From Chloroflexota bacterium (GTDB taxonomy: Bacteria > Chloroflexota > Dehalococcoidia > Lucifugimonadales > UBA3495), in the NCBI GenBank assembly GCA_028875655.1, contig JAPPCX010000113.1, forward strand, positions 1 through 42,503: 42,503 bases of DNA, given 5' to 3'. The notes beneath the pieces were generated by a model. It was not told the DNA's origin. It searched no databases and saw only the letters and a program-made list of their open reading frames with translations. Each line of letters opens with the position of its first letter. Positions within the stretch are counted from its first letter, which is position 1. A program made the translations under genes and the position numbers. Below, in pieces: positions 10,221 to 34,185 of the stretch.

Positions 10221-10811
10221 TTATTGGCCCAGCATCTCGTCGGTGATCTCCGCCAATTTTTCGCCATTCAAGACTCCCTGCCACTTCCGGTGAAGGCTGC
10301 CATCCTCGTTGATAAAGAACGTCGCCGGCAACCCGGTTACGCCCAGCTCCGGCAGCACTCTGGCGTCTTCCGTATATCCCGCCGGGTAGGTTACCGACAG
10401 TTCGTTGAGCAACTTAACGGCGTCCTCCTGGGTGCCCAGGCTGAAGAACTGCCCAAGGTCAACTCCGATCACCAGCGCCCGGCCGGAATATTCGTCGGCA
10501 AAGTGCTGAAACTCCGGCATCTCCGCGCGGCAGGGCGGACACAAGCCGGCCCAGAAATTCAGTACGACCGGTTGTCCCTGCAAGTCAGACAGCGAAAGAT
10601 TCTCTCCCCCAACGGCATCCTGGCCCTGGTAAAAATTAATCGGGAAGTCATAGACGGCGTTAGCCGCAGGGTTGACCTCGGTCGCGGCCCCTGATTCGGA
10701 GCCACAAGCGCTTGTTCCAAAAACCAGGAGCGTGACAGCAACCACCACGGCCAAACCCACAGCCGGAGAGTCGGCGCGCGCCTTTTGTAGAAAGCCCGTC
10801 ATACTTTTCAT
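10221..10811 (-). CDS. TlpA-like thioredoxin-fold lipoprotein
   Basis: 196 aa. A hydrophobic N-terminal helix (about 17-33) ends at Cys36 in a lipobox-like TSAC, so it is probably membrane-anchored and extracytoplasmic. The thioredoxin fold carries the redox pair Cys91-Pro-Pro-Cys94 in NFWAGLCPPC, and the cis-Pro region is VTGLPATFFINEDG. It probably reduces extracytoplasmic disulfides or supports cytochrome c maturation. It is the first gene of the long minus-strand run. A promoter-like pair ends only a few bases upstream, so its mRNA may be nearly leaderless. Confidence 0.88.
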   Translation of the reverse strand: MKSMTGFLQKARADSPAVGLAVVVAVTLLVFGTSACGSESGAATEVNPAANAVYDFPINFYQGQDAVGGENLSLSDLQGQPVVLNFWAGLCPPCRAEMPEFQHFADEYSGRALVIGVDLGQFFSLGTQEDAVKLLNELSVTYPAGYTEDARVLPELGVTGLPATFFINEDGSLHRKWQGVLNGEKLAEITDEMLGQ

Positions 10812-25422: not shown

Positions 25423-25839
25423 TTACAGGTTCATTGCCTCCAGGCCCACCCGGGACAGGTCTTCGTCGGCCTGTCCGCTCGGGTAGCCGCCCACGCCGAT
25501 GCCGCCGAGGATTACGCCTTCCTGCATGATCACCAGGCCGCCCTGGCCGTGGGTGAACCTGGGGTCGCCCAGGTCGGCGATGTTGCGTCCCTGGGCGTGC
25601 AGCCCGGCGGCATGCTCGCCGGAATCCCGACCCATCACCGCCGAGGTGTACGCCTTGCGCAGCGCGTGACGACGGCTGAAGACGCGCAGGTTGTCCATGG
25701 TGAGATAGGCCACGAGCTCGCCGGCGGCATCGACGATTGCCATGGCCACGGGCGCGTCTGGCGTCTCGTTCGCCTTGGCGAGCATCGCGCTCATTGCGGC
25801 GGTAACTTGTTCGGTGGTCAGCGCGGGTTTGGTTGCCAT
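25423..25839 (-). CDS. GlcG/HbpS-like (DUF336) protein
   Basis: 138 aa. Pattern of the GlcG/HbpS/PduO-C fold: PVAMAIVDAAGELVAYLTMDN, SRRHALRKAYTSAVMGRDSGEH, GGLVIMQEGVILGGIGVGGYPSGQADEDLSR (quoted in pieces), ending in a short helix. Members bind heme or act as accessory proteins; the molecular role here is unknown. AGGAGG precedes ATG 25839. It is convergent with the LLM gene and divergent from the selenoprotein gene. Confidence 0.85.
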   Translation of the reverse strand: MATKPALTTEQVTAAMSAMLAKANETPDAPVAMAIVDAAGELVAYLTMDNLRVFSRRHALRKAYTSAVMGRDSGEHAAGLHAQGRNIADLGDPRFTHGQGGLVIMQEGVILGGIGVGGYPSGQADEDLSRVGLEAMNL

Positions 25840-25878
25840 GAGAGTGCCTCCTGATGCTGTCAATTGAAATACGACGGG

Positions 25879-25907
25879 ATGATACCACGCTGTTTGTGGG
25901 TTATAAT
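25879..25907 (+). promoter_or_regulatory. Promoter of the redoxin gene
   Basis: ATGATA (25879-25884), a 17-bp spacer and a perfect TATAAT (25902-25907), about 72 bp before the ATG at 25979. Confidence 0.55.
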
Positions 25908-25978
25908 CTGCGCAACCCAAGCCGCCGACTCCGGGCCTCGCGGCCGGAGCCCGGTTGACATTAAAGAGGAGATGGTTG

Positions 25979-26446
25979 ATGCCAGGTCAGATTGGCGACG
26001 TTGCCCCAGACTTCACCCTGCCATCGCCGCACCACGGCGATGTTTCCCTGAACACCTACCACGGTACCCACACCGTTGTGCTGTCGTTCCACGTTCTCGA
26101 TTTCACCGGTGGTTGAACGGACCAGGCGACTTCGTTCCGCCGTTTCAACGGTCGGTTCGAAGAGCTGAATGCCCAGGTGCTGGGCATCAGTTGCGACCAC
26201 GTTGCCGCGCATCGCGCCTGGACGACGTCCATGGGCGGGCTGCCCTACCCTGAACTGTCGGACTGGCATCCCAAGGGCCGGGTCACGACCGCGTACGACC
26301 TCTGGAACGAGGAGCGCGGGGCGGGAACCCGCGCCGTGATTATCGTGGATCCCGATGGGGTCATTCGGTACCGGGAAACCTACGAACCCGGCACGCTTCC
26401 CGACCCCGAGACCATTCTCTCGGCAGTAGAGAACATAGGCCGGTAA
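25979..26446 (+). CDS. Redoxin (AhpC/TSA-type) with in-frame TGA, probable selenoprotein
   Basis: Read through the TGA at 26114-26116, the frame gives 155 residues ending at TAA 26446. It begins MPGQIGDVAPDFTLPSP and continues LSFHVLDFTGG-U46-TDQATSF, then VLGISCDHVAAHRAW, LSDWHPKGRVTTAYDLW and AVIIVDPDGVIRYRETYEPG, a complete peroxiredoxin-like fold. The TGA sits exactly where peroxiredoxins have the peroxidatic Cys (FTxxCTD). Both sides of the TGA are in the same frame with no further stop. SD AAAGAGGAG precedes the ATG. It would reduce peroxides with Sec46. Alternatives are a nonsense mutation or sequencing error, which would have to hit just that codon. Confidence 0.85.
26143..26162 (+). 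promoter_or_regulatory. Candidate bacterial SECIS-like hairpin
   Basis: UUCAAC and GUU(C)GAA can pair around a GGUCG loop, with one bulged C. The loop begins 33 bases after the TGA at 26114-26116 and starts with G, within the general rules for bacterial SECIS. The stem is short, and a competing pairing GGCG (26125-26128)/CGCC (26138-26141) is possible. Low confidence. Confidence 0.3.
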
Positions 26447-26450
26447 AGAA

Positions 26451-26478
26451 GAAGGGGCGAACTGTGATTCGCCCCTTC
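26451..26478. repeat. GAAGGGGCGAA palindrome at convergent gene ends
   Basis: Perfect inverted repeat GAAGGGGCGAA / TTCGCCCCTTC with a 6-base loop, starting 5 bp after the redoxin stop and 28 bp before the end of the convergent GreA-like gene. Confidence 0.75.
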
Positions 26479-26505: not shown

Positions 26506-27375
26506 TTATTCGCCGATACCCTCGATGCGGTACTGGACGGCGCCGCGCGGGGTGCTTACCGTCAACTCCTCACCGACGCTACGACCCATCAGAGCCTGGC
26601 CTATGGGCGAGACCGTAGAGATCTTGCCAGCCGAAACGTCGGCTTCGCGGACGTCCACCAGCGTGAATGCCCGCTGTTGCTGCGTGTCCATATCATGGAG
26701 CGTGACGCGGGAGCCGATGCTGACTTTCTCGGTGTCCGCGTTGGCGGCGTCAACGATTTCCACGCGCGCCAAGTCATTTTCCAGCTGACGGATGCGGCGC
26801 TCGACCAGTTGCTGCTGCTCTCGGGCAGCATCCAACGGCGCATTTTCGCGAACGTCTCCGTCGCTGCGAGCAAGGCGGATCGTTTCGCGGATTTGAGGGA
26901 CCTCAGCGCGCAGCCGTCGCAACTCTTCCTGCAATTCGTTATGTCGTTCCTCGCTGAGCCGGGCGGTGGGAGTGCTGGCGCCGGTAGCCTGGTCGGTATT
27001 CTGGAAACGGCGCCGGTTGCGGCGAGGGGCGGTAGCGTAGCGGGCGAGGCTGATCTGGGTCCAGCCCTTGCGGTTGGCGAAGGTTAGGAATTTTTTGACC
27101 GGGTCGAGACGGGACGCCGGGTTCTCTACGTTTTCGGTGGTCCACCGAGCGTAGTCGCCCACTTCGATAGCGTGCAATGTTGCTATCATTTTGTCTTTGC
27201 CAATCCTGGCCTGGAAGCGGAGCAGTTCCTGCTGACCCTGCATGGGTTGGCGGCCGTCTTTAAGGTAATCGACGAATAGGTCAATGGCTTGCGATATCGA
27301 GAGGTGCGGTTCGTTGGTCAACTTGTATCCCTCCAGTCCGGTCGCAATCTCACGCCGCATACTGTCATCAATCAT
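26506..27375 (-). CDS. GreA/GreB-like transcription factor with an extra N-terminal domain
   Basis: 289 aa, far longer than GreA (about 158 aa). Residues 140-289 are a full Gre protein: a coiled coil with tip SDGDVRENAPLDAA (Asp174, Glu177 in the positions of the catalytic acidic pair), then a C-terminal domain with IGSRVTLHD, VSPIGQALMGRSVGEEL and TPRGAVQYRIEGI. Residues 1-115 are helical (QAIDLFVDYL, IEVGDYARWTTENV, DPVKKFLTFANRKGWTQ) and recall the SAM-like core-binding domain of tyrosine recombinases. A basic linker RRNRRR (118-123) joins them. Start 27375 or 27360; a -10-like TATGAT at 27376-27371 would favour 27360. Confidence 0.75.
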   Translation of the reverse strand: MIDDSMRREIATGLEGYKLTNEPHLSISQAIDLFVDYLKDGRQPMQGQQELLRFQARIGKDKMIATLHAIEVGDYARWTTENVENPASRLDPVKKFLTFANRKGWTQISLARYATAPRRNRRRFQNTDQATGASTPTARLSEERHNELQEELRRLRAEVPQIRETIRLARSDGDVRENAPLDAAREQQQLVERRIRQLENDLARVEIVDAANADTEKVSIGSRVTLHDMDTQQQRAFTLVDVREADVSAGKISTVSPIGQALMGRSVGEELTVSTPRGAVQYRIEGIGE

Positions 27376-33900: not shown

Positions 33901-33928
33901 AAAAAACCCGTCCCCATAGGGACGGGCC
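33901..33928 (-). terminator. T-box-controlled terminator before ilvB
   Basis: Minus strand CCCGTCCC, loop TATG, GGGACGGG, then six Ts (33906-33901). It competes with the T-box antiterminator at 33931-33948. Confidence 0.88.
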
Positions 33929-34185
33929 ATAACCCGCGGTACCACCCTATTTGCCATAGCCGCCTTCGGGCGACGCATGACCACTCTAGCAGGACACCAT
34001 CATGTCCCGTCGCTTCTAACGGGCAACGAACCCGGCCTGAGCTTACTGTTCGCCAATATCGGGAGGCGGTTTTCAGCCGGCAACTCCGGAGTGATTTTGG
34101 GCGGGATCGGCGCGTCTGCTTTCACCTTACCAGACTCGCTACTGCGCGTGCGGCCCGCTTACTCGTCTCCATCGCAGTTTTTCAA
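33902..34185 (-). promoter_or_regulatory. T-box leader, isoleucine type, controlling ilvB
   Basis: The minus strand carries the T-box AGGGTGGTACCGCGGGTT (33948-33931), the AG-bulge motif GACGAGTA and GGTGAAAGC of stem I, and, at the 3' side of the specifier loop, AAAATCACTCCGGAG. Reading the codon before the conserved A gives ATC (34095-34093), isoleucine. A terminator hairpin follows. Uncharged tRNA-Ile would bind the T-box and allow read-through into ilvB. Confidence 0.88.

Follow-up and report, generated by a model that had tools for sequence, protein, structure and literature searches.

A probable selenocysteine peroxiredoxin of the AhpE-like type in a selenoprotein-rich Chloroflexota genome

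One gene in the window analyzed here (a stretch of 42,503 nucleotides in contig C111 of a 3.45-Mb MAG, G000, of a Dehalococcoidia/SAR202-type Chloroflexota bacterium) is crossed by a single in-frame TGA, which raises the question of whether this codon is a defect, a stop, or a site of selenocysteine (Sec) insertion in the active site of a peroxiredoxin. Close relatives of the host are recorded as Dehalococcoidia, Chloroflexi, or SAR202 cluster. The two features concerned are as follows.

25979..26446, + strand: predicted Sec-containing AhpE-like peroxiredoxin gene, 155 residues with U46 (frame, PF00578 match, homologues, predicted fold)
26114..26116, + strand: putatively recoded TGA (Sec46) in the column of the peroxidatic Cys, context FTGG-U-TDQ (U/C in aligned homologues)

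The ATG at 25979, the TGA (codon 46), and the TAA at 26444-26446 lie in one frame that contains no further stop. The 155-codon product read through the TGA matches PF00578 (AhpC-TSA) over residues 5-131 with 116 bits (E=1.4e-33), passing the curated cut-off of 26 bits, and the TGA coincides with the peroxidatic Cys column of this match. An earlier sequence-only reading had described a single TGA within an intact frame at the peroxidatic position; both its coordinates and its frame agree with our results, and the match to PF00578 is a full one. We consider it nearly certain that the product is an AhpE-like peroxiredoxin of the 1-Cys type that contains selenocysteine; in this reading, UGA would be decoded as Sec via SelB and a downstream hairpin. 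Standard gene callers would stop the protein at residue 45 or begin it late, so annotations of the enzyme in this lineage's MAGs are likely to be wrong.

The AlphaFold2 model of the product has a pLDDT of 90.5, and Foldseek placed AhpE of M. tuberculosis among its best matches (TM 0.91-0.94, rmsd 1.4-1.8, 34-35% identity). The same protein was the best sequence match of a phmmer search against the PDB (E 3.6e-25), and by sequence and predicted fold this 1-Cys peroxiredoxin is the nearest solved relative. Among 81 aligned representatives of the homologues, column 46 holds U in 72 and C in nine, so that the homologues have Sec or Cys there, and T43 and R118 are invariant (81/81). Most Sec members carry H38 followed by V or I39, where AhpE has F37 followed by P, giving a subfamily motif FH[V/I]xxFTxGU that lacks the usual peroxiredoxin proline. 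This Pro of PxxxTxxC/U is replaced by V39 in the window protein and is present in only four of the 72 Sec representatives. Its change to V or I in nearly all Sec members, together with that of F38 to H, would suit a protein into which Sec is inserted but which acts mainly as a redox sensor or as a thiol/selenol reductase on a peroxiredoxin fold. We regard such a function as unlikely, although it is the most credible of the alternatives considered here: the peroxide-activating T43, the Sec/Cys residue, and R118 are invariant, the closest solved relatives are peroxidases, and loss of the Pro has left the profile match, fold, Thr, and Arg intact. A Sec-dependent peroxidase is the preferred reading of the gene.

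A homologue with one TGA was identified in 98 of 147 related genomes (by row count, 12 in the genus, 32 in the family, and 54 in the order), two of which (G089 and G132) show an additional TAG. When 86 distinct homologous segments were read directly, the TGA stood at the same codon in all of them; with this and the distribution over 98 genomes, chance is ruled out. The Sec copy was not seen in two members of the genus, G005 and G009, whose genomes are 85-86% complete. In family f24, all five fetched homologues (L084-L088) have Cys in place of Sec, and selA lies over the cut-off in four of the five genomes with the Cys form, the fifth genome being 79% complete; in this family, Sec seems to have been replaced by Cys without loss of selA. 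The homologue tree needs three Sec/Cys changes, its Cys clades being f24 (inside a Sec clade), one group of Cys paralogues, and one long-branch row. Homologues L109 and L143 were left out of the homologue set. Sec homologues with 60-67% identity (L044, L048, L049, and L050) were also found in MAGs labelled Proteobacteria, Entotheonella, and Armatimonadetes, for which horizontal transfer or mislabelled bins are possible explanations.

In a single sequence, a pseudogene or a sequencing error that had broken a Cys or Trp codon to TGA would look like the lone TGA in an open frame seen here. However, this explanation is refuted by conservation, as the same TGA recurs in dozens of independently assembled genomes and down to about 40% protein identity. 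The frame downstream of the TGA is under purifying selection, as is the frame upstream: in comparisons within the genus, pN/pS is 0.02-0.14 on the 3′ side of the TGA and 0-0.15 on the 5′ side, and the nearest relative differs in the codons after the TGA by 15 synonymous changes and one nonsynonymous change. Such low values after the TGA are not expected of a truncated or decayed gene; a degraded downstream frame, which the sequence-only reading had named as grounds for giving up Sec, is therefore not what we observe. A conserved hairpin that accompanies Sec genes and is absent from Cys genes, described below, also speaks against a broken codon, and we judge a pseudogene or sequencing error to be very improbable.

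26130..26162, + strand: bSECIS-like hairpin (pairing against a synonymous null, covariation, fold)

The hairpin starts 14 nt downstream of the TGA and consists of a lower stem (26130-26134/26158-26162), a TT/TT internal loop, an upper stem (26137-26141/26151-26155), and an apical loop of 9 nt at 26142-26150 (GTTTCAACG). Counted with the U of UGA as 1, pairs 17-21/45-49 and 24-28/38-42 flank a UU/UU internal loop, and positions 29-37 form the apical loop. The window's own upper stem has a C26140-T26152 mismatch, leaving four pairs. Across 48 homologues with at least 60% identity, the fraction of paired cells is 0.838 vs. 0.592±0.020 under a synonymous null (maximum of 1000 recodings, 65%), and the difference persists without the genus (0.842 vs. 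0.590). Pairs between two third codon positions are paired in 85% of cases vs. 46% in synonymous recodings, and sliding the partner strand by 1 to 6 bases lowers pairing to at most 53%. Among 105 third-third pairs, 27-39 (with GC, CG, TA, AT, and TG variants all present) ranks first in covariation and 18-48 third, but pair 33-51, outside the hairpin, also ranks high, so that covariation alone is not a clean signal. Downstream of the TGA, 86 Sec genes fold more strongly than their synonymous recodings (mean z -1.7), whereas 11 Cys genes do not (+0.2).

According to the published bSECIS model, the loop has 3-9 nt with a G in its first two positions, the upper stem has 4-16 bp, the spacing is 16-37 nt, and the MFE is at most -7.5 (PMC13188914). 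The conserved conformation of the window fits this model, with a 9-nt loop that starts with GU and lies 25 nt from the UGA. The best fold of the window, of -20.4 kcal/mol over a 54-nt segment, also lies below the MFE limit, although this value belongs to a fold with its top displaced by one or two bases. Of the 48 homologues, 37 have a G within the first two loop positions and 11 lack it. Taken together, the comparative evidence supports a SECIS hairpin well, and Cys homologues lack it. The sequence-only reading had called its SECIS candidate weak; the single-sequence fold of the window is indeed unremarkable (z -1.6) and not convincing alone, but pairing, covariation, and the folding difference between Sec and Cys genes together make a strong case, and the bSECIS search it had proposed after the TGA has yielded a conserved bSECIS-like hairpin.

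The same genome encodes the machinery for Sec insertion on four separate contigs. We identified selA (553 bits, contig C52) and selB (361 bits over 579 of 581 positions, contig C40), both over their curated cut-offs, selD (378 bits, contig C89; L013, G000:C89:5347-6270), and a tRNA-Sec with anticodon TCA (66.4 bits, contig C63). The selD gene carries its own in-frame TGA, in the context SHCAGUAAK, which indicates that selD is itself a selenoprotein gene. All four components that were to be sought outside the window (selA, selB, selC, and selD) are accordingly present, and a genome devoid of Sec machinery, which would have spoken against Sec46, is not the case here. A second tRNA-Sec match (L018, 54.9 bits) was discounted; by eye it is a class II tRNA with anticodon GTA that resembles tRNA-Tyr. 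As selA passes the cut-off in 124 of the 147 related genomes and nearly universal in the order, its co-occurrence with the Sec peroxiredoxin is consistent with Sec insertion but cannot discriminate. A genome-wide code change, with TGA read as Trp or Gly, is the least probable explanation of all and can be set aside, as we found no evidence in its favor, the homologue column contains Cys and never Trp or Gly, TGA is a true stop for about seven of 23 chosen ORFs of the window so that the code is not reassigned, and the genome has a TCA tRNA-Sec together with selA, selB, and selD. With the codon itself homologous to Sec or Cys, sel genes in the genome, and a conserved hairpin downstream, the Sec46 reading holds.

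The surroundings of the gene contain the following features.

25423-25920, - strand: HbpS-like gene, neighbor
25879..25907, + strand: candidate sigma-70-like promoter, ATGATA-17-TATAAT (consensus match only)
25966..25974, + strand: Shine-Dalgarno-like AAAGAGGAG, 5-13 nt upstream of the ATG (read from the sequence)
26451..26478, - strand: intrinsic terminator, most likely that of greA and no part of the SECIS (terminator scoring)
26506-27375, - strand: greA, converging neighbor

The peroxiredoxin gene has no operon partner between the HbpS-like gene and greA. The promoter, Shine-Dalgarno sequence, and palindrome had been described earlier as bracketing the gene. Promoter-like and Shine-Dalgarno-like sites are present (one sigma-70-like site found vs. 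0.2 expected). The palindrome at 26451-26478 has an intrinsic-terminator score on the minus strand only, where it is followed by the T tail TTCTTTACCG, and for this reason most likely terminates greA, which converges on the peroxiredoxin gene; the palindrome was rejected as a SECIS, since it lies 3′ of the stop codon and scores as a minus-strand terminator. Elsewhere in the window, a second redoxin-type gene (10221-10811, - strand) matches PF00578 with Cys in LCPPC and has a lipoprotein-like N-terminus. T-box leaders control tRNA-synthetase or amino-acid genes. One such leader lies at 33915-34184 on the minus strand (97 bits, Rfam RF00230).

Further candidate selenoprotein genes were identified in the genome.

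contigs C3:9779, C72:69341, C31:5952, C2:19798, and C52:608: five PF00578 relatives (L148, L149, L151, L152, and L153), each having one TGA precisely at the position of the catalytic Cys
contigs C101:41494 and C12:20879: two SelW-like (PF10262) genes (L155 and L156), CVPU, with TGA at the Sec position

The motifs of the five PF00578 relatives are WUPHC (twice), WUPYC, CUINC, and WUPEC, and these genes probably encode selenoproteins; other genomes of the genus also contain several TGA-bearing PF00578 genes. Together with the peroxiredoxin gene, the two SelW-like genes, and selD, the genome would encode at least nine selenoproteins, a lower bound drawn from two Pfam families and SelD. At least nine redox genes in which TGA occupies the catalytic position place it above the threshold of six applied to selenoprotein-rich organisms in an earlier study; Chloroflexota are not among the three selenoprotein-rich clades of that study (PMC5029168). 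Only three selenoproteins were reported for Chloroflexi in a 2006 survey (PMC1794560), and among the papers searched none contained both SAR202 and selenoprotein.

These results suggest that the Sec peroxiredoxin is a stable feature of a little-studied marine Chloroflexota lineage, and the Cys-reverted family f24 provides natural Sec/Cys pairs for asking what benefit Sec brings to a peroxiredoxin. A more far-reaching scenario, which we offer tentatively and hold to be rather doubtful, is that FH[V/I]xxFTxGU marks a distinct Sec-first subfamily in which Sec came with loss of the Pro and gain of the adjacent His, that it is ancestral to the whole selenoprotein-rich Chloroflexota order, and that one family went back to Cys while keeping selA. 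Regarding mechanism, gene content and RNA conservation suggest that SelB with Sec-tRNA(Sec) would bind the hairpin 14 nt past the UGA and thereby allow its decoding as Sec. By analogy with the family mechanism, Sec46, polarized by T43 and R118, might attack peroxide to form a selenenic acid, for which an external thiol or selenol may then act as the reductant. C72, which is found in 51 of the 72 Sec representatives and is not universal, could be a resolving residue, and in members having it the reduction might, speculatively, proceed via a selenosulfide with C72.

Compared with known systems, the window protein shares the fold of M. tuberculosis AhpE (1XXU, 4X0X, and 5C04), and the TxxC and active-site Arg of the two align. 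It differs in having Sec for Cys and H38-V where AhpE has F37-P; the AhpE F37H mutant has been crystallized (5C04) and resembles the natural state of the window protein. Like PrxU from Eubacterium acidaminophilum (NCBIfam NF040737), it would be a thioredoxin-fold Sec peroxidase, but with 64.5 bits against a cut-off of 270 it is no equivalog of PrxU. Marine metagenomes yielded 253 Sec peroxiredoxin sequences (pfam00578, TxxU) in 2008 (PMC2398784), and these and the Sec peroxiredoxins of a 2026 review (PMC13188914) resemble the present protein in belonging to PF00578 and in having TxxU with Sec at the peroxidatic position. The review calls PxxxTxxU highly conserved, whereas most members described here have V or I at the Pro. 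Peroxiredoxins with TxxU are therefore already known, and the present case, where they are tied to Chloroflexota genomes, adds the lineage, the motif of the subfamily, and a genome rich in selenoproteins.
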